DNA of 64,000 nt from an uncultured Lachnospiraceae bacterium. GTDB taxonomy: Bacteria; Bacillota; Clostridia; Lachnospirales; Lachnospiraceae. This document shows, piece by piece, positions 8,428 to 50,245 of the stretch; within the stretch, counting starts at the first letter, position 1, and every line of letters starts with the position of its first letter. The translations under genes were made by a program, and so were the position numbers. Location: positions 62,001 through 126,000 of the forward strand of contig CACWLA010000003.1 in NCBI GenBank assembly GCA_902761665.1, written 5' to 3'. Below the pieces are notes generated by a model. The model had not been told where the DNA came from. It was given only the letters and a program-made list of their open reading frames with translations, and ran no database searches.

Positions 8428-8488
8428 GGTGATTCTCCTTTGAATGGTGCGGGAGGACGGATCATGCCGCGGCGGACAGCCCTGCGGC

Positions 8489-9226
8489 TTACATTTTTCG
8501 TTTCAGCCAGTCCCGGGCGGCGGCGACAGCCTCGTCCAGGTGATAGTCGTAACAGTGGGAATCGCCGGGGATCACGGCGAGCTCGGCGTCCCGGAAGCGG
8601 CCGGCGTATTCGATTGACGCTTCGACGGGAATGGTCAGGTCCGCGTCGCCGTGGACGAAGAGGATGGGACCGCCGTAGCGGAGGGAATCTTCGGGATGGA
8701 CTAACTGCGCCGCGCGGACGTAACCACCGCCAAGCGGTTCGGGCTCCCCGACGTCAAATTCCTCAGGGACCCGTGCGGGATCGAAGAAGATTTCGTGGAC
8801 GCGCCCTTCCCGTGCCCATGCGGGGATGGTCAGGGCCGGTGCGAGGGCGACGACGCCCTTTATCCTGTCGCGGTGCATCGCGGCGGCAAGCATGACGGCA
8901 AGGCCGCCCTGCGAGTGCCCGCAGAGCCAGATCTCACGGTAAGGCAGATCCTTCCGCGCGTAATCAATCAGGGCCGTGATGTCCGACAGCCATTTCCAGA
9001 TCGTGTGGTCGCGGAAATGCCCGCCGCTCTTTCCGTGGCCGTAAAGGTCGGGGCGGAGCACGGCGAAGCCGAGCCCGGTCATCATTTCCGCCATTGCGTT
9101 TAAGTGGGGCTCTTCCTTATAGCCCGTAAAGCCGTGGACCAGGATCATCAGAGGCGTGTTTTCGCTCTGCTTATCCGGAAGATCCAGAACGGCCTCGAGC
9201 GGGATGCCGTCGTTATAGATCGTCAT
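8489..9226 (-). CDS. Alpha/beta hydrolase (cinnamoyl/feruloyl esterase-like)
   Basis: Serine carboxylesterase of 245 residues. The oxyanion-hole region is LVHGFTGYKEE, the nucleophile elbow is GHSQGG, and late Asp (HGDADLTIP) and His (GDSHCYD) complete the triad. RPDLYGHGKSGGHF and WKWLSDI are characteristic of Lactobacillus LJ0536-type cinnamoyl esterases, which release hydroxycinnamates from plant esters; that substrate is inferred. No signal peptide, so it is cytoplasmic. The ATG at 9226 was chosen because AGAGGT lies seven bases upstream; an in-frame extension of 38 codons upstream lacks a ribosome binding site and crosses the AT-rich promoter region. Confidence 0.85.
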   Translation of the reverse strand: MTIYNDGIPLEAVLDLPDKQSENTPLMILVHGFTGYKEEPHLNAMAEMMTGLGFAVLRPDLYGHGKSGGHFRDHTIWKWLSDITALIDYARKDLPYREIWLCGHSQGGLAVMLAAAMHRDRIKGVVALAPALTIPAWAREGRVHEIFFDPARVPEEFDVGEPEPLGGGYVRAAQLVHPEDSLRYGGPILFVHGDADLTIPVEASIEYAGRFRDAELAVIPGDSHCYDYHLDEAVAAARDWLKRKM

Positions 9227-9334
9227 GGGAATACCTCTTTTTTCGCAGTATCTTTCTGAAATCACACTATCGTATTTCCGAAAAAAAAGCAAGTGACGGC
9301 GGACGGTTTCGGCAGGATCCGGGAGCCGCGGCGC

Positions 9335-9363
9335 TTGCAAAGAAGGGGGAAGGCTCTTATAAT
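9335..9363 (+). promoter_or_regulatory. Sigma-A promoter of lipoprotein gene
   Basis: TTGCAA at 9335-9340, 17-base spacer, perfect TATAAT at 9358-9363, 47 bases before the start codon. Confidence 0.72.
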
Positions 9364-9410
9364 GAAAGCAGAAAAACGGGCTGTCCGGCTGCGGCCGGTG
9401 AGGAGGCAGG

Positions 9411-10181
9411 ATGAAAAGGACCCGGATAATTCTGATCTATCTATTGACAGGAGTGATGCTGATGATAAGCCTCGGCGGATGTTTCGGAAAAAAGTACAAG
9501 GTAATGCATGACGGCGGCTTCAGTTCGAAAAAGACCGCCTACCGCGCGGGCGAGAAGGTGACGCTTTACTACGAGTTCATCGCCACGGACACGGATTACA
9601 GCTTTTACAGCAACGACGTGGAACTGAAGCAGAGCTACGATAACGACCATGGCTACGTCTTCACCTTCACCATGCCGGAGCACGACGTTCTCGTGCAGTC
9701 GTACTCGAAGAATTCCATGGTCTGGGATCCGAATGCGAACCGCGAAGAGACCGAGGAGGACTGGATCGCGCAGATCAAAAACGGCGCCTGTGAGATGGTT
9801 TTTGACTATTATGAGGCGACGGTCGGGACCGTGGGCGGCGACGGCCACGATGAGTTCGTGCTCTACCGCCGGCCGAACGGCGTCATGCTCATGGCGAAGT
9901 ATTCGCAGTGGGGCGATGCCGCGGAGAGCTGCCGCGCCTGCATCATGACGGACAGCGCTCTCTACGACTGCCTGGAACTCGTGGACAAAAACAAAATGCG
10001 GAAATGGAACGAACAGGACGGACTCGCGATCACCGGCGCAGCGTATGTGGTGAAGTTCTGCGAAGCGGACCGTACGGTCCGCGTTTCCAGCGAGAACATG
10101 CCGGAGGACGGCCAGCGCGCCTTCGGCGAGATCGAAACGACCCTCGCGAAGTACTGGCGTATCTACGGCCCGAAGAAGTGA
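9411..10181 (+). CDS. Predicted lipoprotein, unknown function
   Basis: A 256-residue protein with a signal peptide ending in a lipobox (SLGGC, lipidated Cys near residue 24), so it should be tethered to the outer face of the membrane. After it, a short beta-rich module (about residues 40-95) ends in FTFTMPEHDVLVQSYS, a pattern seen at the end of small bacterial surface repeat modules. The remainder has no motif I recognise. The start carries the ribosome binding site GGAGG six bases upstream. It is monocistronic: own promoter upstream and a strong terminator 20 bases after the stop. No functional inference beyond envelope location is justified. Confidence 0.75.
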   Translation: MKRTRIILIYLLTGVMLMISLGGCFGKKYKVMHDGGFSSKKTAYRAGEKVTLYYEFIATDTDYSFYSNDVELKQSYDNDHGYVFTFTMPEHDVLVQSYSKNSMVWDPNANREETEEDWIAQIKNGACEMVFDYYEATVGTVGGDGHDEFVLYRRPNGVMLMAKYSQWGDAAESCRACIMTDSALYDCLELVDKNKMRKWNEQDGLAITGAAYVVKFCEADRTVRVSSENMPEDGQRAFGEIETTLAKYWRIYGPKK

Positions 10182-10248: not shown

Positions 10249-10342
10249 GCCTTGCAGACAGGCGTAAGCTTTCTCGGAACGATTCACATCCGTTCAAATG
10301 TTCCTCGAAAGCTCAGCCGGCTCTGCAAGGCTTTCTTACGCC
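10249..10342. repeat. Nested imperfect inverted repeat between convergent genes
   Basis: Outer arms GCCTTGCAGA (10249-10258) and TCTGCAAGGC (10322-10331) are perfect. Inner arms 10267-10280 and 10300-10313 (AGCTTTC..GGAAC type) match at 12 of 14. A third pair, GGCGTAAG (10261-10268) and CTTACGCC (10335-10342), offers an alternative fold. The element covers the 3' end of the dehydrogenase gene. Confidence 0.6.
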
Positions 10343-11433
10343 AGCGATTCGAACATCTCCCGCAGCGCGGCCTCGTCCATCGGGACGGGGTTGTTTTTCA
10401 TGAGCGGATGCACGGCCGCGGCTTTTGCCAGCGCGGGAATGTCGACTTCCCCGAGATCGGAAAGGCGCGTTTTCAGACCGGCTTCCTGCTTGAAGGCACG
10501 GATGTATTCCGCAAGTTCCTCTGTTCCGGATAGGCCAGCCCTTCGGCAAAGTTCCTCCAGACGTTCGTCAGCGTTGATGCGCACGAAACTGTCCAGGGTG
10601 AAGGCGCAGGCTTCACCGTGCGGCAGGTGCCAGTTCTCGCTTAAGGGATAGCTGCAGGCGTGGCAGCCGGCCGTCTTCGGCAGGGCAAAGGAAAGGCCGC
10701 CGAGGAGAGAGGCATAGGAAAGGGCGGCGCGGGCGTCCCGGCTGCTCCCGTCCCGGTAAGCGGCGGAAAGGTTCTCCAGGATCAGGCGGACGGCTTCCGC
10801 AGCCAGAAGATCGGTGATGGGCTGATGGTTCTTGCTCCAGCAGCCTTCCAGGGCGTGCGCCATGGCGTCAAGCCCGGTGCTCATGGTGGTGTACGGAGAG
10901 ACCGTGAGTGTCAGCAGCGGATCCACGACCGCGGCCTTCGGCATGAAGGACGGGTGGTTCATGGTGCGCTTTTCCGTACCGCGGCTGATGACCGAGACCT
11001 GCGTGACTTCGCTGCCGGTGCCGGCTGTCGTGGGGACGCAGACGATGGAAAGCGGCCGGTCGAGAAGCGGCTTTTCTCCGCGGAAATAAGCCTCCGCAGG
11101 CGCGTCCCCGGGGGCGATCGCCGCGGCGAACTTGGCCGTATCCATGGCGCTTCCGCCGCCGACGCCGATGACGGCGTCCGCTTCGTGCTTCCGGGCGAGC
11201 GCTGCTGCTTCGGCGGCGCCGGAAAGCTGCGGGTTCGGCTCCGCGCCGGAGAAGACGGCACAGATCTGCGGGATCTTCTTCCGGAGAAGCGAAGCCTCTG
11301 CGGCAAAGTGCCTGCCGCAGACCAGAACGGCCCGACGGACCTTCAGTTCGTCAAGGACTTCGTCCAGACGGTCAAAACTGCCTTCGCCGAAGAAGATCTT
11401 CACCGGCTGGGCGTAGATGAAATCATTTGCCAT
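10336..11433 (-). CDS. Iron-dependent (group III) alcohol dehydrogenase; candidate sulfolactaldehyde reductase
   Basis: NAD(P)-dependent oxidoreductase of 365 residues, iron-ADH fold. The dinucleotide loop GGGSAMD lies at about 92-98, PTTAGTGSE at 134-142, and the iron ligands appear as Asp189 and His193 (GLDAMAHALE), His258 (GCHACSY) and His272 (LPHGE). The last gene of the transketolase-isomerase operon, it overlaps the isomerase gene by 11 bases. In the transketolase form of sulfoglycolysis a reductase turns 3-sulfolactaldehyde into 2,3-dihydroxypropane-1-sulfonate and regenerates NAD; this enzyme is placed to do that, but the substrate is inferred only from context. A butanol- or lactaldehyde-type dehydrogenase is the alternative. 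Confidence 0.88.
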   Translation of the reverse strand: MANDFIYAQPVKIFFGEGSFDRLDEVLDELKVRRAVLVCGRHFAAEASLLRKKIPQICAVFSGAEPNPQLSGAAEAAALARKHEADAVIGVGGGSAMDTAKFAAAIAPGDAPAEAYFRGEKPLLDRPLSIVCVPTTAGTGSEVTQVSVISRGTEKRTMNHPSFMPKAAVVDPLLTLTVSPYTTMSTGLDAMAHALEGCWSKNHQPITDLLAAEAVRLILENLSAAYRDGSSRDARAALSYASLLGGLSFALPKTAGCHACSYPLSENWHLPHGEACAFTLDSFVRINADERLEELCRRAGLSGTEELAEYIRAFKQEAGLKTRLSDLGEVDIPALAKAAAVHPLMKNNPVPMDEAALREMFESLA

Positions 11434-11899
11434 AGTTTCTGTCCTCGATGGCGTCCAGCTGCGCAGCGAACTTATGCATGTTGGCGGCGCGCCAGTCCTC
11501 GAGATCCTGGCACCATTCGGTGTTCAGGAAGGTCTTCGTCATGTCGACGGCAAGCTCCGGCCCGACGACCCAGCCGCCCATGCACAGCACCTTCGCGTTG
11601 TTGATGGCGCGGGCCATTTTCGCGGTGTAGGGGCTTTCGCAGACCACGGCGTGGACGCCCTTGAACTTGTTCGATACGATGCACATGCCGGCGCCGGTCC
11701 CGCAGATGAGCACCGCGCGGTCGAAGGTCCCGTCCGCGACGAGCGGGGCAGCCTTCGCGGCGACCTGATAGTAGGGCTGCGGCTGTTCGGGATCGAGCGT
11801 GCCGAGGTCTTCGAATTCATATCCTTCCTGCGTGAGCCAGGCTTTGACGGCTTCCTTGGCAGTGAAGCCGGATTTGTCGCTTCCGAGTGCGATCTTCAT
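11423..11899 (-). CDS. RpiB/LacAB-family isomerase; candidate four-carbon (sulfo)sugar isomerase
   Basis: Aldose-ketose isomerase of 158 residues. The catalytic cysteine is Cys66 in LICGTGAGMCIVSNK, the anion-binding loop of the family. Compared with E. coli RpiB as I remember it, the ring-opening histidine (His99) is Ile99 here (ARAINNAKV), the phosphate-contacting His9 is Lys9 (GSDKSG), and the C-terminal arginine pair is not evident. Those changes would suit an acyclic substrate with a non-phosphate anion, such as 4-deoxy-4-sulfoerythrose in the sulfo-transketolase pathway (enzyme SqwI there). A pentose- or tetrose-phosphate isomerase remains possible. Located between the transketolase and dehydrogenase genes; GGAGG precedes its ATG. 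Confidence 0.85.
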   Translation of the reverse strand: MKIALGSDKSGFTAKEAVKAWLTQEGYEFEDLGTLDPEQPQPYYQVAAKAAPLVADGTFDRAVLICGTGAGMCIVSNKFKGVHAVVCESPYTAKMARAINNAKVLCMGGWVVGPELAVDMTKTFLNTEWCQDLEDWRAANMHKFAAQLDAIEDRNYGK

Positions 11900-11937
11900 G
11901 ATGATCCTCCTGTTTTGACGAAATGCAAATGTGTTTT

Positions 11938-11982
11938 TGTATATACTTTTTGTTAATGCGTGTTAACGGTTTGTTTATGCGT
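11938..11982 (-). promoter_or_regulatory. Possible internal promoter with direct-repeat operators upstream of the isomerase gene
   Basis: Minus-strand TTAACA (complement of 11961-11966), 17-base spacer, TATACA (complement of 11938-11943) in an AT-rich 82-base gap. Direct repeats GTTAATGCGT (11952-11961) and GTTTATGCGT (11973-11982) are exactly 21 bases apart and flank the palindrome GTTAAC (11962-11967). Confidence 0.45.
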
Positions 11983-12908
11983 CATTCCTTCACGGCGAGC
12001 GCTGCCTTCGCGCGGCGGACGATGTTCTCCGGCGTGAGTCCCATGACCTTCTTCAGGTACGGGAGCTTTCCGACCTCGCCGAAGCGGTCCGGGATGCCGA
12101 GAGCAAAGGCGGGCACGGGATCCGCGGCGAGAGCTTCGGCGACGGCGCTGTGCAGGCCGCCGATGATGTTGTGGTTCTCGACGGTCAGGACGCAGCCGGT
12201 CTTTTTCGCCGAGCGGATGACGGTCTCCCGGTCGATCGGCTTGATCGTATGGACGTTGATGACCTCGGCTTCGATCCCTTCTTCCGCAAGCGTGCGGGCG
12301 GCCTCCAGCGTATCCGCAGTCGGCAGGCCGCTGACGAAGATCGAAAGATCCCGGCCTTCCCGCAGGAGGTCGGCCTTCATCAGGTCGAATGCATAGCCTT
12401 CCTGAAAGACCGGTGCGGTCTCCTTCCGGAAGAGGCGCAGGTACAGCGGTCCCTTGTAGGCGGCGATGGCCGGCATCGCGGCGCGCAGCTGGACCTCGTC
12501 CACCGGCTCCACGATCACCATCCCGGGGATGGAACGCATGACGCCGATGTCTTCCATGCTCATGTGCGTCCCGCCGTTCAGTTCTGCGGAGATGCCGGGG
12601 TCGGTACCCACGATCTTGACGTTCATGCCCGCGTACGCGATCGAAATGGCGACCTGGTCGCAGATGCGTCGGGTCGCGAAGGGCGTGAAGCTCTCGATCC
12701 AGGGCGTAAAGCCGTAACTGGCAAGTCCCGCGGCGATGGAGGCCATGTTCTGCTCGGCGACGCCGCAGTCAAACATCTGCCCGGGGAAGCGTTCGTACAG
12801 TTTCCTCGTTCCGCTGGCCTTCGCAAGGTCGGCGTCCAGAACGACCACGTGACGGTCGTTTGCCATCATTTCAGCCAGGCATTCGGCATAAGCTGCTCTC
12901 ATTTCCAT
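11982..12908 (-). CDS. Transketolase, C-terminal (Pyr/TKC) subunit
   Basis: Second half of a split transketolase, 308 residues, holding the pyrimidine-binding and C-terminal domains. The catalytic glutamate is Glu52 in CGVAEQNM, and GGTHMSMED (about 116-124) and the usual VEPVDEVQ segment follow. It pairs with the N-terminal subunit encoded 3 bases upstream to form the thiamine-diphosphate enzyme that moves a two-carbon ketol unit. Split transketolases serve the pentose pathway in many Clostridia, but also dedicated pathways such as apulose-4-phosphate (AptAB) and 6-deoxy-6-sulfofructose (SqwGH) breakdown. Genes downstream favour a dedicated role. Confidence 0.93.
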   Translation of the reverse strand: MEMRAAYAECLAEMMANDRHVVVLDADLAKASGTRKLYERFPGQMFDCGVAEQNMASIAAGLASYGFTPWIESFTPFATRRICDQVAISIAYAGMNVKIVGTDPGISAELNGGTHMSMEDIGVMRSIPGMVIVEPVDEVQLRAAMPAIAAYKGPLYLRLFRKETAPVFQEGYAFDLMKADLLREGRDLSIFVSGLPTADTLEAARTLAEEGIEAEVINVHTIKPIDRETVIRSAKKTGCVLTVENHNIIGGLHSAVAEALAADPVPAFALGIPDRFGEVGKLPYLKKVMGLTPENIVRRAKAALAVKE

Positions 12909-12911
12909 GGC

Positions 12912-13775
12912 TCAGGCCTCCTTTCCGCCGTTTCCGGCTTCTTCGCGGGCAAAGGCTTCCCGGAGCGCGCGGATGGCTTCGTCCGCTTCGGCTTCGGTGA
13001 AGGGGCAGTTGTGGTTGCCGGCGCCCATCGCTTCGACGGCGGGCACGCCGCAGCCCTTCTTCGTGTTCAGAATGACCATGGTCGGCCGGCCGGAACCGGT
13101 GTTTGCGCGGGCCCTGTCCACGGCTGCCGAGACGGCGGCGAGGTCGTTCCCGTCTTCGACGTCGATGACGTTCCAGCCGAAGGCTTTCCATTTGTCAGCA
13201 AGCGGCGCGATGTCGTTCACCTTTGCCACCGTATCGTCGATCTGCAGTTTATTGTAATCGGTAAAGGCGATCAGGTGATCCAGGTGCTTTGCCGCCGCAA
13301 ACATGGCGGCTTCCCAAATCTGGCCTTCCTGGCTCTCGCCGTCGCCGATCAGGGTGTAGATGACGGCTCCGTCGCCTTCAAGCTTGGAACCGAGGGCAGC
13401 GCCGACGGCGCAGGAAAAGCCCTGACCGAGCGAACCGGTGGTCATGTCGATGCCGGGCGTCCGGTTCATGTCGCAGTGCGAAGGGAGGTCGGTCCCGCCC
13501 TGGTTCAGGGTCAGCAGCATTTCCTTCGGGAAAAAGCCGCGGTTCGCGAGTGCGGCATATACGGCAGGACCGGCGTGTCCCTTGGAGCAGATGAAACGGT
13601 CGCGGCCGGGCATTTTCGGCTGCGCGGGATCGATGTTCATGGCCTCAAAATATAAGACGGTGAGGAGTTCGATGACGGACAGACAGCCGCCGATGTGGCC
13701 GACGCCGAGGTGCCCGATGGCCCGCAGGGTGTCGCAGCGGATGTCCAGACAGTGCTGTTTGAGAGATGGATTCAA
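12912..13775 (-). CDS. Transketolase, N-terminal (ThDP-binding) subunit
   Basis: First half of a split transketolase, 287 residues. It shows the substrate and cofactor histidines in LGVGHIGG and SKGHAGPA, the GSLGQGFS loop, and the ThDP motif GDGESQEGQIWEA followed by DYNKLQIDD. The start is a TTG at 13775, chosen because TCCGGAGG ends seven bases upstream and homology begins here; an open frame continues upstream but reads as nonsense across the promoter. First gene of the leftward operon: transketolase N, transketolase C, RpiB-like isomerase, iron alcohol dehydrogenase. Confidence 0.92.
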   Translation of the reverse strand: MNPSLKQHCLDIRCDTLRAIGHLGVGHIGGCLSVIELLTVLYFEAMNIDPAQPKMPGRDRFICSKGHAGPAVYAALANRGFFPKEMLLTLNQGGTDLPSHCDMNRTPGIDMTTGSLGQGFSCAVGAALGSKLEGDGAVIYTLIGDGESQEGQIWEAAMFAAAKHLDHLIAFTDYNKLQIDDTVAKVNDIAPLADKWKAFGWNVIDVEDGNDLAAVSAAVDRARANTGSGRPTMVILNTKKGCGVPAVEAMGAGNHNCPFTEAEADEAIRALREAFAREEAGNGGKEA

Positions 13776-13807
13776 CTTGTCGCCTCCGGATGATTTGATG
13801 CGCCATA

Positions 13808-13835
13808 AGCATAGCACAGGCGGCGGGAATGTCAA
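13808..13835 (-). promoter_or_regulatory. Sigma-A promoter of the transketolase operon
   Basis: Minus-strand perfect TTGACA (complement of 13830-13835), 16-base spacer, TATGCT (complement of 13808-13813) preceded by TG at the extended -10 position. It lies about 35 bases before the TTG start. Confidence 0.75.
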
Positions 13836-13892
13836 GGCAAAGGAGCCGCTGTCCTGCCCTGTTTTCCGCTGGAAATCTCCCGCTCCGGCTGA

Positions 13893-13898
13893 TATAAT
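13893..13898 (+). promoter_or_regulatory. -10 box of the acetyltransferase gene
   Basis: Perfect TATAAT 45 bases before the start codon, divergent from the transketolase promoter. The -35 (TGGAAA at 13870-13875, 17-base spacing) is weak. Confidence 0.45.
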
Positions 13899-13943
13899 GA
13901 CTGCATCGGGATCAGGATCTGCGGACCCGGAGGAGACGAAACA

Positions 13944-14594
13944 ATGACAGAATGGGAACGGATGACGACGGGGCGGCTCTACGACCCCGGCAAGGAAGAG
14001 ATCGATCTGCGGCACAGGCAGGGGATGGAACTCTGCGACCGCTTCAACAGGACGCCGCTCAGGCGCCGCCGGAAAAAGGCGCGCCTGCTGGAAAAACTGA
14101 TCCCCTCGTCCGCGGGGAAGGATCTGGTCGTATTCGGTCCGTTTTACTGTGAATACGGCGTCAATATCAATGTGGGGAAAGACTGCTTCGTCAATTACGG
14201 CTGCACTTTCCTGGACGTCGCGCCCATCACGCTGGGGGACGACGTCTGGATCGGCGCGAACGTGACGCTCGCGGCGCCCATGCACCCCTGCCTTGCCGAA
14301 GAACGGATCATCCGGGAATACCCGGACGGGATCCACGACCTGGAATACGCGAAGCCTATCACGATCAGGAACAACTGCTGGATCAGCTCGGGCGTCATCA
14401 TTTCCGGCGGCGTCACCGTCGGTGAGAACAGCATCATCGCGGCCGGAGCCGTGGTGACAAGAGACGTTCCGCCGGACTGCATCGTGGGCGGCGTGCCCGC
14501 GCGCGTGATCCGGAAGCTCGATGAAAACGACCGGATCGGCGTGTGGGAGGCCTATGTGAATGACCGCCCGCCCCTTTCGAAGAGGGCTCACTGA
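13944..14594 (+). CDS. Hexapeptide-repeat O-acetyltransferase (maltose/galactoside acetyltransferase-like)
   Basis: Acetyl-CoA-dependent sugar O-acetyltransferase of 216 residues. The N-terminal helix bundle (residues 1-60) leads into left-handed beta-helix repeats with the family landmarks FGPFYCEYG, GKDCFVNYGCTFLD, GANVTLAAPMHP (catalytic-site histidine) and GAVVTRDVPPDCIVGGVPARVI. That order is typical of Maa/LacA/NodL enzymes, thought to detoxify non-metabolised sugars by acetylation. It has its own -10 box, and ATG follows GGAGG. It lies between two sugar-catabolic operons, which may be meaningful, but the acceptor cannot be read. The DUF5131 gene starts 2 bases after its stop. Confidence 0.88.
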   Translation: MTEWERMTTGRLYDPGKEEIDLRHRQGMELCDRFNRTPLRRRRKKARLLEKLIPSSAGKDLVVFGPFYCEYGVNINVGKDCFVNYGCTFLDVAPITLGDDVWIGANVTLAAPMHPCLAEERIIREYPDGIHDLEYAKPITIRNNCWISSGVIISGGVTVGENSIIAAGAVVTRDVPPDCIVGGVPARVIRKLDENDRIGVWEAYVNDRPPLSKRAH

Positions 14595-14596
14595 CC

Positions 14597-15712
14597 ATGT
14601 CTGTCTGGAATCCCTGGCACGGCTGCCATAAGATCAGTCCCGGCTGCGCGAACTGCTACGTTTACCGCCGGGACGAAAGCATAGGAAAAGACGCGTCCGC
14701 CGTGACAAAGACGGGCGATTTTGACCTGCCGCTGAAGAAGGACCGGAAGGGGAAATACAAGCTGACGCCGGAGGACGGAACCGTTTTTACCTGCATGACC
14801 TCGGATTTCTTCCTGGACGAGGCGGATGCGTGGCGGCCGGCGTGCTGGGACATGATCCGCGCGCGGACGGACCTGCACTTTTTCATCATCACCAAGCGGA
14901 TCGGGCGCTTTGCGGCGTGCGCGCCGCCGGACTGGGGAGACGGCTGGGACAATGTCACGGTCTGCAGTACCTGCGAAGACCAGACGCGGGCGGACCTGCG
15001 CCTGCCGGTCCTGCTGGATCTGCCGCTTAAGCACCGCGAGGTGATCTGCGAGCCCATGCTCGGCCCCGTGGAAATGGAGAAGTATCTGGCGGCAGGCCTC
15101 ATAGAGCATGTGACCTGCGGCGGCGAATCGGGACCGAAGGCCAGATCCTGTGAGGATAAATGGATCCGTGAGGTCCGGCGGGAATGCATCCGTCAGGGCG
15201 TGCCCTTTACTTTCAAGCAGACGGGCGCGGTCTTCGTCATGGACGGCAGGACCTATCACATTGAGCGGAAGGACCAGATCCCGCAGGCGCGAAAGTCCGG
15301 CTGGAGCTACGTTCCCGGGGAAAATTCCGGCGCGGCCGTCGTCTACCGCCTGCCGCAGCGGGAGGCGCTCAGGCAGGCCCTTGGGCGCTCGGCCTTCCGG
15401 AGCCGCTTTCACCTGAGCGAAGAGGACAGAAAGTATGTCGCGGAGAAAGGCATGGAGACAGTCCGCCGCCACGCCGCGGAGATCGTCGCGAAGCGCCTGG
15501 CACCGGAAAACCCGGACAATGACGGAAAACAGACGCCCATGAAGGGACATCCGGTCTTCATTGCCCAGCACGCGATGGCCTGCTGCTGCCGTGCCTGCCT
15601 GGAAAAATGGCATCACATCCCGGCGGGCAAGGTCCTGACGGAAGAGGAACAGGCCTACGTCACGGCCGTGATCACGGACTGGATCGAAGGCGAAACGGCT
15701 CCCGCCCCTTGA
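14597..15712 (+). CDS. DUF5131 (phage Gp37/Gp68-type) protein fused to a DUF4186 domain
   Basis: A 371-residue two-domain protein. Residues 1 to about 255 match DUF5131: WNPWHGC at 4-10, SPGCANCY at 14-21 (three cysteines able to hold a metal or Fe-S cluster), then CMTSDFFLDEAD, CGGESGPKAR and KQTG. The C-terminal ~100 residues, with NDGKQTPMKGHPVFIAQHA and CCCRACLEKWHHIPAG, match DUF4186, normally a stand-alone protein. Neither domain has an established activity known to me; DUF5131 resembles radical-SAM or nucleic-acid-processing proteins of phages. It starts 2 bases after the acetyltransferase stop, so it is translationally coupled. Confidence 0.8.
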   Translation: MSVWNPWHGCHKISPGCANCYVYRRDESIGKDASAVTKTGDFDLPLKKDRKGKYKLTPEDGTVFTCMTSDFFLDEADAWRPACWDMIRARTDLHFFIITKRIGRFAACAPPDWGDGWDNVTVCSTCEDQTRADLRLPVLLDLPLKHREVICEPMLGPVEMEKYLAAGLIEHVTCGGESGPKARSCEDKWIREVRRECIRQGVPFTFKQTGAVFVMDGRTYHIERKDQIPQARKSGWSYVPGENSGAAVVYRLPQREALRQALGRSAFRSRFHLSEEDRKYVAEKGMETVRRHAAEIVAKRLAPENPDNDGKQTPMKGHPVFIAQHAMACCCRACLEKWHHIPAGKVLTEEEQAYVTAVITDWIEGETAPAP

Positions 15713-15737
15713 CATGAAGCGCGATCGCGCATAAAAT
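15709..15737 (+). promoter_or_regulatory. Sigma-A promoter with palindromic operator in its spacer
   Basis: Perfect TTGACA at 15709-15714, 17-base spacer, TAAAAT at 15732-15737. The spacer contains the perfect 12-base palindrome GCGCGATCGCGC at 15719-15730, well placed for a repressor that blocks RNA polymerase. It drives the isomerase-GH31-symporter operon. Confidence 0.78.
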
Positions 15738-15770
15738 TGCTAGAGAATTCAGAAACGCACCGGAGGTGCC

Positions 15771-17219
15771 ATGGAATCGTTAATTACCGTATATCTGCCG
15801 GTCGGCGTCGGAACTTTCCACATGGAAACGGCGGCCGATCAGTTCGCGCGCTCCGTCAGGCTCCTGAAAAGCATTGACGGAGATGTTGTTGTCCCGGACA
15901 GGCCCCTGCTTTCGGTGGAGGCTCTTCGGGACTATCTTGCGCCGCTTCGGCCCGGTCTGGTCATCTTTCAGGACCTGACTTTCGCGAACGGTGCCTATAT
16001 GGCGGAGGTCCTGCGCCGCTATGACGGCCCGGTCCTTCTCTGGACCCTGCGCGAGCCGGCGGGCGACGGGGGGCGGCTGAAGCTGAACTCCCTGACCGGC
16101 GCCTATTCGGCGGCGCATACCCTGCGGAATTTCGGGAACCGGCCGTTTTCCTACGTTTTCGGTGCGCCCGAAGAGGAAAACGTCAGGGAAGCCGTGCAGA
16201 AAGCGATCAGGGCTGCGGCGGACGAAAGCGTCACGTCGCTTCTTGACGAAAAGCCGGAAGAACGGGAGAAGACCCCCGAAGAAGTCTTTGCGGCTTCGAT
16301 CCGGGACAAGATGCGCCGCCTGAAGATCGCGGCGGTCGGCCACACGCCCCAGGGCTTCGGTTTCGGCCGGGCGCTGGACGCCGAAATGATGTACAACTTC
16401 GGCGCGGAGCTGGTCTCGGTCGAGGTCCGCGAACTCATTAACAAGGCGAAGAGCTATGCCGACGAAGAGTGTGCGGAATACCTTGCACGCACGGAAGAAG
16501 CGACCTGCGGCTTCGGGAAGACGCCGGAGAAGAACCGCCTGGACCACGCCCGCCTGTACAAGGCGTACACGGATTTCGTCCGCGAAAACGGGATCGGCGC
16601 GCTCGCATCCCGCTGCTGGCCGGATCTCTTCACCGAATTCGGCACGCCTGTCTGCACGGTGCTTTCGCTCCTGAACGACGAAGGCGTCGCGGCGGCCTGC
16701 GAAGCCGACCTGTACGGCGCACTGTCCATGTGGATCGGGCAGGAACTTTCGGGAAGACCGGTCTTCTTCGGCGATCCCGTCGCGCTTGACGAAGAAGCAA
16801 ATACCCTGACCTTCTGGCACTGCGGCATGGCTGCCTGTTCGCTGGCGCGCAGGGATACCGGCGCCGTGGTGGGCGTGCATCCGAACCGGAAGATCGGTCC
16901 GGCCATGGATTTCGGCTGCGAAAGCTTCCCTTCGGCGACCATCTTCCGCATCGGCCGCGAGCCGGACGGCACTTTCCGCTTCTTCATTGCGGAAGGCGAA
17001 GCGCTTGACAGGCCGAAACAGTTCATCGGGACTTCGCTCGTCGTCCGCACGGACGCGGACAGCCGCGCCCTCGTGGAACAGAGCGTCGCCGCGGGCTTCG
17101 AGCCGCACTTTGCCGTGATCCACGGCCGCCACGCCGGAACGCTGAAGGCACTTGCCGGCCTGTACGGCTTCAAGGTCTGCGAATACCCTCTCCCGGAAGA
17201 GGGAGACCGGCAGAACTGA
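15771..17219 (+). CDS. L-fucose/L-arabinose isomerase-fold protein; candidate sulfoquinovose isomerase
   Basis: Predicted metal-dependent aldose-ketose isomerase of 482 residues. The C-terminal half carries the conserved metal ligands of the fucose/arabinose isomerase superfamily: Glu311 (ACEADLYGALSM), Asp335 (FFGDPV) and His350 (TLTFWHCG). N-terminal Rossmann-like domains are divergent. First gene of a rightward operon with a GH31 glycosidase and a sugar symporter, under a strong promoter with an internal palindrome. In sulfoglycolysis by transaldolase or transketolase, sulfoquinovose must first become 6-deoxy-6-sulfofructose without phosphorylation; this enzyme is the obvious candidate for that step. 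Isomerisation of an ordinary deoxysugar is the alternative. Confidence 0.8.
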   Translation: MESLITVYLPVGVGTFHMETAADQFARSVRLLKSIDGDVVVPDRPLLSVEALRDYLAPLRPGLVIFQDLTFANGAYMAEVLRRYDGPVLLWTLREPAGDGGRLKLNSLTGAYSAAHTLRNFGNRPFSYVFGAPEEENVREAVQKAIRAAADESVTSLLDEKPEEREKTPEEVFAASIRDKMRRLKIAAVGHTPQGFGFGRALDAEMMYNFGAELVSVEVRELINKAKSYADEECAEYLARTEEATCGFGKTPEKNRLDHARLYKAYTDFVRENGIGALASRCWPDLFTEFGTPVCTVLSLLNDEGVAAACEADLYGALSMWIGQELSGRPVFFGDPVALDEEANTLTFWHCGMAACSLARRDTGAVVGVHPNRKIGPAMDFGCESFPSATIFRIGREPDGTFRFFIAEGEALDRPKQFIGTSLVVRTDADSRALVEQSVAAGFEPHFAVIHGRHAGTLKALAGLYGFKVCEYPLPEEGDRQN

Positions 17220-17256
17220 GCGGGTGAGAGCCCGCATCTGCCGAAAAGGAGAAAAC

Positions 17257-19266
17257 ATGTACCGTTCCCATATTGAAAACAGTGTCTGGACCGTGACTCT
17301 CGGCGGCCGGACCATCGCCATGCATTCGCCGGAAAAACCCTTCATCTTTGCGATCCGGAAGGAAAAGACCTATGTGTCGAACCGCGGGACCGTGAAGGAG
17401 ACCATCGTGGAGAAGGCCAGGATCGCCCTGACCGAACTGAAAACGGACGAAGACGGAACGCTCCTCTTTTCGGCGGAAGGCCGTCTCGTCCGTGTGAACC
17501 TTTCCGAACCCGGGGAAGGGATGCTGCGTCTGAAGATCAGCGGCGAAGAAGGCTGGGGCTATGAATTTGCCCTGCCGGCCGATCCGGAGGAAGGCATCTT
17601 CGGCGGCGGCGAACAGTACCGGCAGGTCAACCTGAAGGGCGAAGCGGTGGTCAATTTCGTCTCGGAACACATCAAGGCGAAGACGATCATCGAAAAAACG
17701 CTCCTGCCCGCTGCGTTTTACCAGGAAAAACCGCATAGGGAGATCGGCAGCTACGCGCCGATGCCCGTCTTTGTTTCGGATAGAGGCCTCATGGTGCTTT
17801 TCGAAACGCCCTACGACGGCGTGAGCAGCCTGGACGGCAGCTTTTACCGTTTCGGCTTCGATGCCTGCCCGGAGGAGATGATCCTCTCGCAGGCGGACAG
17901 CTTCCGCGAACAGGCAAGGCGTCTTGCCCGGCTCCATCCGGTGCGGCAGTACCTGCCCGACTGGTGCCTGGACGGCATGATCGTGGGCGTACAGGGCGGA
18001 ACGGAGCGCGTGCTGGAAAAAGCTTTTGCCCTGCAGGAAGCCGGTGCGCGGGTCGCCGGCGTCTGGTGCCAGGACTGGTGCGGCGAGAACCGCACGGTCA
18101 TGGGCAAGCAGGTCTGGTGGAACTGGGAAGTGAGCGAAGAACTCTATCCCGGCCTGAAAGAGGCCATCGCAAAGCTCCGCGAAAAAGGCATCCGCTTCCT
18201 CGCCTACATCAATCCGTATCTCGTGAAGGGCGGCCGTTTGTATGAGGAATGCGCGGAGAAAGGCTATCTCATCCGCCGCGCGGACGGCAGCATCTACCAT
18301 ATCAAATCGACGACCTTCGATGCCGGCATGCTGGACCTGACCGACCCCGAAGTCGTGAAATACGTCAAGGAGACCCTCATCCGCGACAACATGCTCGCGC
18401 TCGGCATTTCGGGCTGGATGGCCGACTTCGGCGAATACCTGCCCACCGACTGCGTCCTGCATGACGGCGACCCGGCGAAACTCCACAACGTCTGGCCGGT
18501 CCTTTGGGCGAAGGTGAACCGCGAAGCCATTGAGGAATTCGGTACGGGCGACGAGATGTTCTTCTCGCGCTCCGGCTACCTGGGCATCGCGAAATACGCG
18601 CCCATCCTCTGGAACGGCGACCAGCACACCGACCTGACAAAGGACTACGGCATGCCCTGCGTGATGCCGGCGAGCTTCTCGCTCGGTTTCTCGGGCGTCC
18701 CGCTTGTCCACGGCGACATCGGCGGCTTCTTCACCTTCGGGAAGATGAAGCGCGATGCCGAACTCTTCATCCGCTGGATGGAGATGGGGACCTTCTCCCC
18801 GCTCATGCGCAGCCACGAGGCGATCCGCCCCTGGACGAATGCCCAGCCGTACGACGAGGGCGTCGCACCTTATACCGTGATGCTGTCGAAGGTCCATGCG
18901 GCGCTCCGCCCGTATCTCGAACGGTTGCTGGAAGAGGCGCAGGAGGGCATCCCCGCCATGCGTCCGGACTTCTGGGAAGCCGGAAGCATTCAGGAGAGCC
19001 GCGATCCCTACGCCTATTTCCTCGGCGACGATCTTTTCGTCTGCCCGGTGATCGAAAAAGGGAAGACCTGGCGCCGCGTGCACCTGCCCGCAGGAAAATG
19101 GATCGGCCTCTGGGACGGAAAGACGCATTACGGCCCGCTGTCCTTCACTGCGCAGGCGCCGCTCGGGAAGATACCGGTCTTTTACCGCGAGGGAAGTGCC
19201 TTTACGGAAGCCTTCAGGGCGGCAGCAGCGGTCGGAGACGTTCCGCAGAGCCGGAAAAAACGCTGA
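17257..19266 (+). CDS. GH31 glycosidase, YihQ (sulfoquinovosidase)-like
   Basis: Retaining alpha-glycosidase of 669 residues, cytoplasmic (no signal). Catalytic nucleophile Asp390 lies in GWMADFGEYLPTD and acid/base Asp455 in LWNGDQ; both segments are nearly identical to E. coli YihQ as I recall it. The five residues that mark sulfoquinovosidases in YihQ (Q262, Q288, R301, W304, Y508) align here with Gln246, Gln272, Gln285, Trp288 and Phe491, so the Arg and Tyr that contact the sulfonate are replaced. It may therefore cleave sulfoquinovosides with a changed pocket, or a different alpha-glucoside. The ATG at 17257 follows AAAAGGAG; 37 bases after the isomerase stop. Confidence 0.88.
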   Translation: MYRSHIENSVWTVTLGGRTIAMHSPEKPFIFAIRKEKTYVSNRGTVKETIVEKARIALTELKTDEDGTLLFSAEGRLVRVNLSEPGEGMLRLKISGEEGWGYEFALPADPEEGIFGGGEQYRQVNLKGEAVVNFVSEHIKAKTIIEKTLLPAAFYQEKPHREIGSYAPMPVFVSDRGLMVLFETPYDGVSSLDGSFYRFGFDACPEEMILSQADSFREQARRLARLHPVRQYLPDWCLDGMIVGVQGGTERVLEKAFALQEAGARVAGVWCQDWCGENRTVMGKQVWWNWEVSEELYPGLKEAIAKLREKGIRFLAYINPYLVKGGRLYEECAEKGYLIRRADGSIYHIKSTTFDAGMLDLTDPEVVKYVKETLIRDNMLALGISGWMADFGEYLPTDCVLHDGDPAKLHNVWPVLWAKVNREAIEEFGTGDEMFFSRSGYLGIAKYAPILWNGDQHTDLTKDYGMPCVMPASFSLGFSGVPLVHGDIGGFFTFGKMKRDAELFIRWMEMGTFSPLMRSHEAIRPWTNAQPYDEGVAPYTVMLSKVHAALRPYLERLLEEAQEGIPAMRPDFWEAGSIQESRDPYAYFLGDDLFVCPVIEKGKTWRRVHLPAGKWIGLWDGKTHYGPLSFTAQAPLGKIPVFYREGSAFTEAFRAAAAVGDVPQSRKKR

Positions 19267-19368
19267 GAAAGCAAGGAGACCGAGCGGAGCGGAGCTGAGA
19301 AAGTTTATCCGAGGCAGCGAGGCCGCAAGAATAAGCACTTCATTATTTTCACATAAAGGAGAACAACA

Positions 19369-20781
19369 GTGGAACAGTCGTACATTTCCCGCACGAGCGG
19401 GATCAAGGCAAAGGATAAGATCGGCTATGCCATGGGCGACCTGGCGTCCTGCCTGGTCTTCGGCCTGACCCAGAGCGTCCTGAACAAGTATTACACCGAC
19501 GTCCTGGAGATCAGCGTCTTAAGCGTCATGATCATGACCATCGTCGCCCGCATCTGGGACGCGGTCAACGACCCGATCTGGGGCCGCCTCATCGACGGTG
19601 CGAAGCCCGGTAAGGACGGCCGCTACCGCAGATGGATCAAGATCTTCGCCATACCGGTCGCGCTCGCCGCGGTCCTGATGTTCCTGGATGTCAGGGGCTT
19701 TGGCGCCGGCGGCAGGCTCGCCTGGATCTACGTCACCTACATCTTCTTCGGCATGCTGTACACCTGCATCAACATCCCCTACGGATCTCTCGCGCAGGTC
19801 ATCACCTCTGACGATAAGGAACGCTCCGCGCTGTCCGTGTTCCGCTCCATCGGTTCCACCTTCGGCGCCATGCCCGCCATGGTCCTTGCCAGCATCTGCT
19901 ACGTGAAGCTCGCGGACGGGACCAGGCAGATGAGCCAGAGCAAGGTCCTCATCGGTGCCGCCGCCATCGCCGTGCTCAGCGTCATCGCCTACATGCTCTG
20001 CTACGCCTGGACAAAGGAACGCGTGGAATCGAAGCCCGCGCCCCGACAGAAGGGCGAAACGATGCGCGTCATCAAGATCCTCGTGAAGAGCCGCCCGTTC
20101 ATGGCGGTCAGCCTCGCGAGCATGCTCTTCCTTGCCGCGCAGATGTTCGGCCAGGGCTACAACACCTATCTGTTCCACCACTATTTCGGCAAGCCCGGCC
20201 TGACCATGCTGCCTACGGTCTTCCAGTACCTGCCCGTGGCCGTCGTCATGTTCTTTGCCACGAAGCTCGGCAATAAGTTCGGCCGGAGAGAGGTCTGCTC
20301 CTACGGCATCCTGGTTGCCGCAGCCTTCTACATCCTGCTCTTCGTCCTGGCGCTCTTCGGCGTCACCAGCGTCTGGCTGTATCTCGCAGCCTGTCTCATG
20401 AGCGGCATCGGCACGGCATTCATCTTCCTGCTGATCTGGGCGCTCGCGACAGATGCGATCGACTACAACAAGGTGACCTACGGGCTGAACGACGAGGCCA
20501 CGAGCTACGCCTTCTATTCCTTCATGCGCAAGCTCGGCCAGACTGTCGCGACCGTGCTCATCAACGTCCCGCTCCTGAAGATCGGCTACAACGGCAGCGA
20601 GCTGAAGACCGAAGGCCTTTCCGCGGAAGCCCTGAAGAGCATGTACAATTCATCGGTCATGATCCCGGCGATTCTGTTCCTCCTGGTCTTCATCATCCTT
20701 CGCTTCGTGTATCCGCTGGGCAAAAAGCAGATCGCGGAACTGCAGGTGAAGAAGGAAGAAGTCCTCGGCAGACAGGCCTGA
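19369..20781 (+). CDS. GPH-family sugar symporter (YihO/MelB-type MFS)
   Basis: Twelve-helix cation-coupled sugar importer of 470 residues. The N-terminus GIKAKDKIGYAMGDLASC and the loop DAVNDPIWGRLIDGAKPGKDGRYRRW (split across the first cytoplasmic loop) are hallmarks of the glycoside-pentoside-hexuronide family, as is ATDAIDYNKVTYG near residues 360-372. YihO, the E. coli sulfoquinovose importer, belongs to this family; the cargo here is inferred from the neighbouring GH31 and isomerase genes. The start is GTG with AAAGGAG upstream. A 102-base gap separates it from the GH31 gene; part of that gap and the first codons recur in the scar near 23.2 kb. Confidence 0.88.
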   Translation: MEQSYISRTSGIKAKDKIGYAMGDLASCLVFGLTQSVLNKYYTDVLEISVLSVMIMTIVARIWDAVNDPIWGRLIDGAKPGKDGRYRRWIKIFAIPVALAAVLMFLDVRGFGAGGRLAWIYVTYIFFGMLYTCINIPYGSLAQVITSDDKERSALSVFRSIGSTFGAMPAMVLASICYVKLADGTRQMSQSKVLIGAAAIAVLSVIAYMLCYAWTKERVESKPAPRQKGETMRVIKILVKSRPFMAVSLASMLFLAAQMFGQGYNTYLFHHYFGKPGLTMLPTVFQYLPVAVVMFFATKLGNKFGRREVCSYGILVAAAFYILLFVLALFGVTSVWLYLAACLMSGIGTAFIFLLIWALATDAIDYNKVTYGLNDEATSYAFYSFMRKLGQTVATVLINVPLLKIGYNGSELKTEGLSAEALKSMYNSSVMIPAILFLLVFIILRFVYPLGKKQIAELQVKKEEVLGRQA

Positions 20782-21940: not shown

Positions 21941-23131
21941 ATGGAGATACGAAGAGACGGGATCCGCATCCTGAAAAATCCGCAGAGAAAGGGACGCCCG
22001 GAGGCCGTTTTTACTGAAGAAAAGGCGCAGGAGGCGCTTCGTTTTCACCGGAGCCTGCCCGCCTACGGAGAAACGGCGCTGCGTTCTCTGGATGCACTCG
22101 CGAAGTCGCTTCGTCTCGGCGGGATCTTCGTGAAGGACGAATCCTCGCGCTTCGGCCTGAACGCTTTCAAGGGGCTCGGGGGCAGCTACGCGCTGTTCAG
22201 GCTGCTCTGCGAACGTTTCGGCTTTGACCCGCGGAAGACAGACTTTGCGGACCTTCTGCAGGAACCGTACCGCACGAAATGCCGCGCGGTGGAATTTACC
22301 ACTGCGACGGACGGAAACCACGGGAGAGGCGTTGCCTGGGCGGCCGGCCTTTTCGGCTGCCGGGCGCACGTTTTCATGCCGGCGGGCAGTGCGGAAGCGC
22401 GCCGCCGGGCAATCGAGGAAGTCGGTTTTGAAGCCGAAGCCGTGATCACGCCTTACAACTATGACGGCGCGGTCGCTCACGCCGCACGCCTTGCGGCGGA
22501 AAACGGCTGGATCCTGGTGCAGGATACCTCCTGGGAAGGCTACGAGGAGATCCCGGCGCGGATCGTCGAGGGGTATCTTACTCTGGGAAATGAAGCCGTG
22601 CGGCAGCTTGCCGGGGCCGCTCCGACCCACGTGATCCTGCAGGCAGGCGTCGGCGCGATGGCCGGCGGCCTAACCGACTACCTGGCCCATGCCTTCGAAA
22701 AACGCCCGGTCTTCATCCTGGCCGAGCCAGACGAGGCAAACTGCCTCTACCGCTCGCTCGAAGCCGGAGACGGGCAGATCCGCATCGTGGAAGGCAACCC
22801 GGAGACCGAAATGGCAGGCCTTAACTGCGGAACGCCCTGCGGCGTCACCTGGCCCGTGCTCCGCGACGAGACCGACTTTGCCTGTGCCCTCACCGACGAA
22901 GTCACCGAGGAAGGCATGCGCCTTTATGCAAAGCCGCACGGAAACGACCCGAAGATCGTTTCCGGCGAATCCGGCGCCGTCACCCTCGGCCTTGCCGCCC
23001 GCATCGCCCGCGACGGCGAACTGCGCAGCCTCTTCGGCGTCACCGAAGACTCCGTTTTCCTGCTTGTCAGCACCGAAGGCGACACCGACCCCGAAAATTA
23101 CCGCAGGATAACCACTGCCTACCACCTCTAG
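21941..23131 (+). CDS. dpaL: Diaminopropionate ammonia-lyase
   Basis: PLP enzyme of 396 residues that converts 2,3-diaminopropionate (and often D-serine) to pyruvate and ammonia. The Schiff-base lysine is Lys77 in FGLNAFKGLGG, TTATDGNHGRGVAW is the substrate-binding loop, and GVGAMAGGLTDYL is the cofactor phosphate loop; length and motif order fit the YgeX/DpaL family. It has its own extended -10 promoter and a leader hairpin. No carbamoyltransferase or dipeptidase genes of the usual ygeWXYZ group are nearby, so it probably acts alone on an imported or toxic amino acid. Confidence 0.9.
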   Translation: MEIRRDGIRILKNPQRKGRPEAVFTEEKAQEALRFHRSLPAYGETALRSLDALAKSLRLGGIFVKDESSRFGLNAFKGLGGSYALFRLLCERFGFDPRKTDFADLLQEPYRTKCRAVEFTTATDGNHGRGVAWAAGLFGCRAHVFMPAGSAEARRRAIEEVGFEAEAVITPYNYDGAVAHAARLAAENGWILVQDTSWEGYEEIPARIVEGYLTLGNEAVRQLAGAAPTHVILQAGVGAMAGGLTDYLAHAFEKRPVFILAEPDEANCLYRSLEAGDGQIRIVEGNPETEMAGLNCGTPCGVTWPVLRDETDFACALTDEVTEEGMRLYAKPHGNDPKIVSGESGAVTLGLAARIARDGELRSLFGVTEDSVFLLVSTEGDTDPENYRRITTAYHL

Positions 23132-49381: not shown

Positions 49382-50245
49382 ATGCGAAACGACCGATCCG
49401 CAGCAGCAAAAGGCGCACTCTTCGTCTTTCTGTCCGCGCTTTTCTTCAGTATCGGCGGCCTCTTCATGAAGCTGATCCCCTGGAACGGGCTCGCGATCAA
49501 CAGCGCGCGGAATGTCTTTTCGGTCCTCGTGCTGGCCGCGTTCTTCCGGATCCGCCGCCATAAGCTCGTCATCAACCGCACCGTACTCATCGGTGCGCTT
49601 GCCATCGTGGGGACGAACATCCTCTACAGCCTTGCGAACAAACTGACCACTGCCGGCAACACGATCATCCTGCAGTTCACGGCGCCGATCTGGGTCATGG
49701 TCTTCTCGTCGCTTCTGCTGAAGAAGAAGCCGGGACGGCTGGATCTCGTCGCGGCAGCCTTCGTCTTTGCCGGCGTCATCTGCTTTTTCGTCGACAGTCT
49801 CTCGTCGGGGCATCTGACCGGCGACCTGCTCGCCCTGCTTTCGGGCATCTTCTACGCGGGCGTCTTCATGATGAACGCGCGGGAGGATTCGGACAGCCTG
49901 TCCTCGGTCCTTGTCGGCATGGTGCTGAACGTGCTGACAGGCCTTCCCTTCCTCATCCGGGAGCAGCCGTTTTCGGCGGGGATGGACGTCTGGGGACCGG
50001 TCCTCATCCTGGGCTTCTTCCAGTTAGGCCTTGCCTATGTCTTCCTGACGGAAGGCCTCGTGATCACGCCGCCCGTCACCGCGAGCCTCATCAGCGGGAT
50101 CGAACCGGTGCTGAATCCGCTCCTCGTCGCAGTCTTTTACGGTGAAATGCTGACGCCGCTGTCCCTGGTCGGCGCGGCGATCGTTTTCCTCTCGGTCATC
50201 GGCTACAATCTGCTACGGCTGAAACAGGCCGAAGCCGGAACATAG
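49382..50245 (+). CDS. EamA/DMT-family transporter (copy 1)
   Basis: A ten-helix membrane protein of 287 residues made of two EamA repeats. LFVFLSALFFSIGGLFMKLI opens repeat one and GDLLALLSGIFYAGVFMMNA repeat two; QFTAPIWVMVFS and SGIEPVLNPLLVAVFYGE end the respective repeats. Family members export amino acids, nucleosides or other metabolites; cargo is not readable. It starts 13 bases after the YgjP-type gene with AGGAGG upstream, and a UUCG-capped terminator follows the stop. Confidence 0.88.
   Translation: MRNDRSAAAKGALFVFLSALFFSIGGLFMKLIPWNGLAINSARNVFSVLVLAAFFRIRRHKLVINRTVLIGALAIVGTNILYSLANKLTTAGNTIILQFTAPIWVMVFSSLLLKKKPGRLDLVAAAFVFAGVICFFVDSLSSGHLTGDLLALLSGIFYAGVFMMNAREDSDSLSSVLVGMVLNVLTGLPFLIREQPFSAGMDVWGPVLILGFFQLGLAYVFLTEGLVITPPVTASLISGIEPVLNPLLVAVFYGEMLTPLSLVGAAIVFLSVIGYNLLRLKQAEAGT

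Follow-up and report, generated by a model that had tools for sequence, protein, structure and literature searches.

Sulfoquinovose (SQ) is a sulfur sugar of plants that is formed in amounts of billions of tons every year, and sulfide formation in guts and in the rumen is fed by its degradation. The sulfoglycolytic transketolase (sulfo-TK) pathway is one route of this breakdown, reportedly described for Clostridium sp. MSTE9 by Liu et al. in 2021. Here, a seven-gene module with the enzyme classes of this pathway is analyzed in a 64,000-nucleotide stretch of DNA, hereafter called the window, from an uncultured Lachnospiraceae bacterium (GenBank assembly GCA_902761665.1, contig CACWLA010000003.1, positions 62,001 to 126,000). 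In published accounts, the two transketolase (TK) steps of sulfo-TK leave sulfoacetaldehyde, which is reduced to the C2 sulfonate isethionate by SqwF or ends as sulfoacetate, whereas sulfolactaldehyde (SLA) and C3 sulfonates are products of the sulfoglycolytic transaldolase (sulfo-TAL), Embden-Meyerhof-Parnas, and Entner-Doudoroff pathways (PMC9594981, PMC12890257). The parts given there for MSTE9 are SqvD, SqwGH, SqwI, SqwF, and SqwE. In a rumen study, conversion of SQ to isethionate was shown in rumen microcosms, and sulfo-TK clusters are present in rumen Candidatus Limivicinus, Caproiciproducens, and Neosphaerochaeta; sqwGHI is transcribed in Candidatus Limivicinus and others, and some Limivicinus have two copies of yihQ (PMC13219744). 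Sulfo-TK in rumen Oscillospiraceae has already been published (PMC13219744), and rumen Clostridia carry those clusters as they do the module described here. The pathway class is already known, and what is new is the combination of genes and the pocket of the entry enzyme.

The module is formed of two divergent operons, one running leftward from 13775 to 10336 and the other rightward from 15771 to 20781, with starts 2 kb apart (Table 1). The leftward operon encodes, in this order, the N-terminal half of a transketolase (TKN), its C-terminal half, an RpiB-type isomerase, and an iron-containing alcohol dehydrogenase (Fe-ADH). The transketolase halves are separated by 3 nucleotides, and the genes of the RpiB-type enzyme and the dehydrogenase overlap. 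The rightward operon encodes a FucI-type isomerase (FI; FucI/SftI-type), a GH31 glycosidase, and a GPH symporter. The gene calls and coordinates of the original prediction, which recognized six gene types in two neighboring operons with an acetyltransferase and a DUF5131 gene between them, hold throughout. The start codon of the GH31 gene is the ATG at 17257, and the codon at 17254 is AAC. Gene content, conservation, TK motif, and clade placement were established directly, and the activities, substrates, and products assigned below are predicted.

Table 1. Genes of the two divergent operons and of the interval between them (window positions).
Feature	Position	Strand	Support
Iron-containing alcohol dehydrogenase, predicted sulfoacetaldehyde reductase (SqwF-like)	10336..11433	-	PF00465 9.6e-45
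LacAB_RpiB isomerase	11423..11899	-	PF02502 3.1e-43
Transketolase C-terminal half (SqwH-like), RAFDR	11982..12908	-	PF02779/PF02780, motif, tree
Transketolase N-terminal half (SqwG-like), TTG start, GGAGG 5'	12912..13775	-	PF00456 2.4e-46
Hexapeptide (maltose-type) acetyltransferase, between operons	13944..14594	+	Domain scan; outside conserved module
DUF5131-DUF4186 fusion protein, between operons	14597..15712	+	Domain scan; outside conserved module
FucI-family isomerase, predicted sulfoquinovose isomerase (SftI lineage)	15771..17219	+	NF048012 SftI 1.1e-108, 364 bits
GH31 glycosidase, Q301/F508 clade, predicted sulfoquinovosidase-like	17257..19266	+	Sequence, fold, residues, tree
GPH-family symporter, predicted glycoside importer	19369..20781	+	TIGR00792 273.7 bits, cut-off 231

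With a probability of about 75%, the module encodes a variant of sulfo-TK that imports SQ glycosides and ferments them to isethionate. The GPH symporter would import an SQ glycoside, from which the GH31 enzyme would free SQ, and the SftI-type isomerase would convert SQ to sulfofructose. The split TK would transfer C1-C2 of sulfofructose to glyceraldehyde phosphate and leave sulfoerythrose, which the RpiB-type enzyme would turn into sulfoerythrulose. A second round of the TK on sulfoerythrulose would leave sulfoacetaldehyde, and the Fe-ADH would reduce it to isethionate. The original prediction of sulfo-TK breakdown to a C3 sulfonate stands for the type of module, as indicated by the gene linkage, the RAFDR motif, and the TK clade; its product is wrong, because published sulfo-TK leaves sulfoacetaldehyde and C3 sulfonates belong to the other routes named above, so that C2 isethionate is expected.

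The module shares its enzyme classes and the RAFDR motif with the sulfo-TK system of MSTE9, for which locus L046 of Clostridium UBA701 is taken as the representative by gene content, and its TK halves are 60% identical to those of L046. In contrast, the isomerase in the window is of the SftI lineage (23-24% identical to that of L046), the GH31 enzyme belongs to another clade, a GPH symporter takes the place of the ABC importer, and a TSUP exporter and DUF4867 are missing. With the sulfo-TAL system of Eubacterium rectale (SftG = PDB 6PNR; PMC11968277), the module has in common the SftI-type isomerase and the GH31 fold; however, SftG has R301/Y508, and the E. rectale system uses a transaldolase, not a transketolase, and forms a C3 product. 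The module thus joins the TK set of sulfo-TK with the isomerase lineage of gut sulfo-TAL clusters, as follows from the scores and identities of FI and the motif and tree of the TK.

The seven genes form a conserved unit, and their grouping is not due to chance. A scan of named genomes with a GH31 alignment provided 581 relatives, the best 80 of which were analyzed, with genes in the loci picked by composition score. These 80 split sharply into 34 loci with GH31 identities of 55-75% and 46 with identities of 37-43%. The first group (L005-L037 and L066) belongs by titles to Oscillospiraceae, Ruminococcaceae, Lachnospiraceae, and other Clostridia, many of them ruminant-derived. GH31, FI, and TKN occur in a single stretch in 19 of the 34 first-group loci and in L132 of genome G238, which is of the same genus as the window. 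All seven genes are together in 11 of the 34 (L005, L007, L010, L012, L013, L014, L025, L026, L029, L031, and L035; the FI gene of L026 is cut at the edge), and the TK-RpiB-ADH genes are usually divergent from FI. In L132 (1488-8774) the module is present with the GPH-GH31 pair inverted. Many of the remaining 15 first-group loci are ended by a contig edge, and 13 of these 15 genomes have the module type of TK elsewhere, flanked by RpiB in all 13 and by FI in 12. The distant TK scores at least 536 bits in 12 genomes and is in two pieces in G398 (309 and 269 bits); G397 and G407, two of the 15 genomes followed beyond the GH31 locus, lack a module-type TK. Among 397 genomes of the window's family, GH31 scores above 1275 bits and TK scores above 600 bits each occur only in G000 and G238. 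In a sample of 391 genomes drawn from the class, only G000 has a GH31 of the window's clade (Q301/F508, see below), and a module-type TK (569 bits) stands by itself in G661.

Sulfofructose transketolases have RAFDR in place of the phosphate-orienting RSFHR of ordinary enzymes, according to PMC11659671. The window TK has RAFDR, as do 17 of the 19 module loci with a TK and all four MSTE9-like or spirochaete sulfo-TK loci tested (L045, L046, L049, and L073). RSFHR is present in 6yaj and in the TK of C. hydrogenoformans, and the paralogs in the genome of the window have RCFDR, QCFDR, and TGFRR. In a tree of the C-terminal half, the module TKs, together with the lone TK of G661, form one clade with a Shimodaira-Hasegawa-like approximate likelihood ratio (SH-aLRT) support of 100, nested in a starred 29-row clade that contains the Clostridium-type sulfo-TK rows L046 and L192. 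The trees are quick searches supported by SH-aLRT only, and the N-terminal half and RpiB were compared by identity. The best PDB match of the N-terminal half is the split transketolase 6yak. The window TK thus shows neither the RSFHR motif of an ordinary transketolase nor grouping with a housekeeping enzyme: its C-terminal half lies outside its own split paralogs (L002 and L003) and 6yaj, and a place in an ordinary clade was what the original prediction had named as evidence against itself. Judged by sequence, the TK fits a sulfofructose-type split transketolase that groups with Clostridium-type sulfo-TK enzymes. In locus L195 of G661 (8101-9872), a module-type TK pair with RAFDR-type residues has no isomerase or glycosidase adjoining it.

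It is very improbable that the operons belong to an ordinary pentose or apiose pathway, in which the split TK would be a pentose-phosphate or apulose-4-phosphate enzyme that lies near a glycosidase operon by chance. Further split transketolases do exist in the genome, and the RpiB-type enzyme passes the cut-off of the generic NCBIfam ribose-5-phosphate isomerase B subfamily (137.6 bits, cut-off 135). However, the linkage of the TK with an SftI-type isomerase and GH31 is conserved, there is no sugar kinase among the module genes, and the TK clade is apart from the split paralogs of the genome, in a comparison set that left AptAB outside. A LacAB_RpiB-type isomerase is present in the TK operon, as expected of sulfo-TK. 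It is 48-57% identical to enzymes in sulfo-TK contexts of Clostridia (38/52% for the split row L193), 38-39% to those of Spirochaetota, and 38% to the other RpiB of the genome.

In most second-group loci, the isomerase shares 53-58% identity with the FI protein; the identity is 32-34% for two Bacillales isomerases and 22-27% for MSTE9-like and spirochaete ones. Against the sulfoquinovose isomerase model NF048012 (SftI), five FIs from loci with Q301/Y508 GH31 enzymes, three of which (L044, L056, and L072) also have the transaldolase SftT, score 389-418 bits. The scores are 517 for Paenibacillus L055, 184 for MSTE9-like L046, and 52 for the paralog on contig C35 of the window's own genome. The clade of FI is one side of a branch in its tree, in which the label of sulfo-TAL isomerases was assigned by identity above 50%. 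A PDB sequence search with FI gave no match among solved structures, including fucose and arabinose isomerases, membership in whose clade the original prediction had named as evidence against itself; this comparison is a database search and not a tree. For the predicted structure of FI (mean predicted local distance difference test score, pLDDT, of 71), the similarity to arabinose and fucose isomerases is limited to a template modeling score of about 0.5. FI is a homolog of SqvD and SftI, in the sense of homology only, below the curated equivalog cut-off. A third FucI-like gene of the genome lies on contig C7. The GPH symporter is 25-26% identical to E. coli YihO and YihP.

The family and operon position of the Fe-ADH, which is 40% identical to the dehydrogenase of the L046 sulfo-TK locus, fit a sulfoacetaldehyde reductase, and no specific model is reached. 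Bifurcated and oxidative (SqwD/SqwKL) versions of sulfo-TK have been published (PMC12890257, PMC11659671), and L132, L027, and L028 have TK and RpiB genes without an Fe-ADH alongside. A variant in which isethionate is not the product of sulfoacetaldehyde, or not its only product, is nevertheless a remote prospect for the window, since an Fe-ADH is part of its operon and a search of the 64 kb for homologs of SftT and SLA reductase at an E-value of 1e-5 found none. In G238, which has no close Fe-ADH, the C2 aldehyde may be processed differently.

Several observations speak against assigning the module to sulfo-TK. Neither FI of the window, with 364 bits against NF048012, nor any of the ten other FIs scored reaches the curated SftI cut-off of 700 bits. 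The Fe-ADH is below every NCBIfam cut-off, including that of SarD (162 of 700 bits), and the best Fe-ADH of G238 is 36% identical. Two module loci lack the alanine of RAFDR (L027 with RSFDR and L020 with KSFDR), and the aspartate of the motif alone is not diagnostic because the split paralogs of the genome already read xCFDR. RAFDR is not confined to sulfo loci, as the lone TK of G661 sits inside the TK clade of the module. The 29-row TK clade includes 10 rows without an assigned context, and 14 of the 16 rows labeled sulfo-TK by context lie outside it. The DUF4867, ROK, EamA, TSUP, SftT, and SLA reductase proteins of relatives have no homolog in the window at an E-value of 1e-5, and the one DUF4867 gene of the genome is in a kinase operon on C35. 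The last of these points is the pocket of the GH31 enzyme.

The residues that bind the sulfonate of SQ are reportedly (Abayakoon et al. 2018) Q262, Q288, R301, W304, and Y508 in E. coli YihQ numbering, and the E. coli YihQ sequence (L101) has all five. The GH31 enzyme of the window is 36% identical to E. coli YihQ and retains both catalytic aspartates as well as Q262, Q288, and W304. However, it differs by the changes R301 to Q and Y508 to F, so that the five positions read Q, Q, Q, W, and F (residues 246, 272, 285, 288, and 491 counted from the ATG). In a Foldseek search, the 23 best chains are sulfoquinovosidases, after which the E-value falls off from 2.6e-51 to 2.5e-35. The description of the enzyme as YihQ-like in the original prediction is borne out by the fold and the catalytic pair and fails at two positions of the sulfonate motif, and because of this departure the enzyme is not classed as a proven sulfoquinovosidase. 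The AlphaFold model has pLDDT below 50 at residues 276-287, 453-478, and 487-499, and the geometry of the pocket was not taken from it because positions 301 and 508 fall within these stretches.

Q301/F508 is found in each of the 31 aligned clade rows that extend to position 508. Of 84 GH31 rows, 41 combine Q301 with Y508, and 11 have R301/Y508, among them the three aligned enzymes with solved structures, which are E. coli YihQ, E. rectale SftG (6pnr), and BmSQase (8r56). These counts are not frequencies, because the loci were drawn by patterns that favored Q301 (MG[KY]QVWW) and rows were ranked by similarity. A less biased sample of GH31 residues has 35 rows, in which L166/L198 and L114/L199 are duplicates and one row is cut short. 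Among the 120 best database homologs, Q301 is present in 118 and DIGGFF in 107, the rest being missed by the pattern.

The module could degrade another C6-modified sugar, with a GH31 enzyme that binds no sulfonate and a TK that cuts twice to give a C2 aldehyde other than sulfoacetaldehyde. The two changes extend throughout the Q/F clade, whose branch has a length of 1.1 changes per column (SH-aLRT 100), and the acidic loop residues at E. coli positions 366 (D/E) and 369 (E) are replaced by K and T. The module loci have no TSUP match, and both arginines of the TK motif may be needed only for the acceptor phosphate. However, Q301 is frequently accompanied by Y508 in the rows above, and SftT is present in 23 of the 46 loci of the second group. 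FI is nearest to the second-group isomerases and the TK to those of sulfo-TK. DUF4867, common in sulfoglycolysis clusters, is within the module operon of seven loci, yet it is also in the kinase operon of the window's own genome. Furthermore, L020 and L026 each hold a Q/F-type GH31 and an additional R301-type GH31 with ABC importer genes beside one TK set. The presence of both GH31 types in the same genomes favors altered recognition of the glycoside or the sulfonate within sulfosugar metabolism over an unrelated sugar, and we consider the degradation of a different sugar unlikely. The sulfo-TK assignment is preferred, and the module is a conserved and probably functional variant of that pathway, as its sequence features suggest.

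More tentatively, the Q301/F508 clade may constitute a second, unrecognized type of clostridial sulfosugar glycosidase, with a pocket remodeled at the 6-position for a different SQ glycoside or a C6-modified sugar; this proposal is possible but doubtful. No description of the clade turned up in literature searches. Genome G519 has two YihQ-like Q301/F508 GH31 genes in L200 (G519:C192:12000-31000; 7163-9169 and 13548-15554), which are 52% identical to E. coli YihQ and flank an ABC sugar importer akin to those beside R301-type GH31 genes. G519 also has an R/Y GH31 gene with FI and SftT (L170). Judged by identity, the two changes probably arose independently in G519.

The yihQ gene serves as a marker of the SQ-degrading guild (PMC13219744). 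In that study, 64% of 1220 amplicon sequence variants (assay a) and 47.5% of 1548 (assay b) from rumen yihQ group with a Mariniplasma protein on a long branch. The amplicon would miss residue 301, because the primer names given there imply approximately nucleotides 1201-1526. If the clade does represent a second kind of glycosidase, part of the rumen yihQ diversity covered by that account would be the Q301/F508 enzyme. If a large gut clade reads its sugar differently, or is no sulfoquinovosidase, marker-based counts of yihQ need rechecking. If the Q/F enzyme is a sulfoquinovosidase, the rule of sulfonate recognition derived from solved structures is too narrow.

The original prediction of a full parts list was too strong, since the locus is without DUF4867 (SqvB/SftX), a TSUP exporter, and a ROK regulator. 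DUF4867 is present in most published clusters, and clusters that lack it are known (PMC11968277); the window does not have it. Downstream of the dehydrogenase, EamA, ROK, and DUF4867 genes are all present in L012, L014, L026, L029, and L031, EamA and DUF4867 in L035, DUF4867 in L010, and EamA in L007 and, without the dehydrogenase, in L027. The module operons with DUF4867 are thus those of L010, L012, L014, L026, L029, L031, and L035. The DUF4867 gene on C35 was rejected as the missing SqvB, because its neighbors are an FGGY-type kinase and a further FucI-like gene. Identity does not settle its role, because its 42% to the DUF4867 of the module is no lower than the 41% of L040. In this C35 locus (L089, 6568-10167), the kinase (assigned by eye), DUF4867, and the isomerase are consecutive and point to a kinase-dependent sugar pathway outside sulfoglycolysis.

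The window also lacks a sulfonate exporter of the TSUP (SqwE) type, and three TSUP genes are elsewhere in the genome. One of their three neighborhoods was inspected, on contig C14, and this TSUP was not accepted as SqwE, as it adjoins an ammonia-lyase-like gene (by eye). In L012 (19341-20243) and its relatives, a transporter of the EamA family is between the dehydrogenase and ROK, at the position of TSUP in other sulfo-TK clusters. It may export isethionate, because no TSUP match was found in the module loci. Two DMT/EamA-like transporters were noted by eye in the window (49382-50245 and 58643-59593), neither of which matched the EamA of relatives at an E-value of 1e-5.

The acetyltransferase and DUF5131 genes between the operons have no match in the GH31-related loci or in L132, and the pair therefore looks like a lineage-specific insertion. 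Downstream of the symporter, window positions 21941-23131 encode an enzyme that resembles, by eye, diaminopropionate ammonia-lyase.

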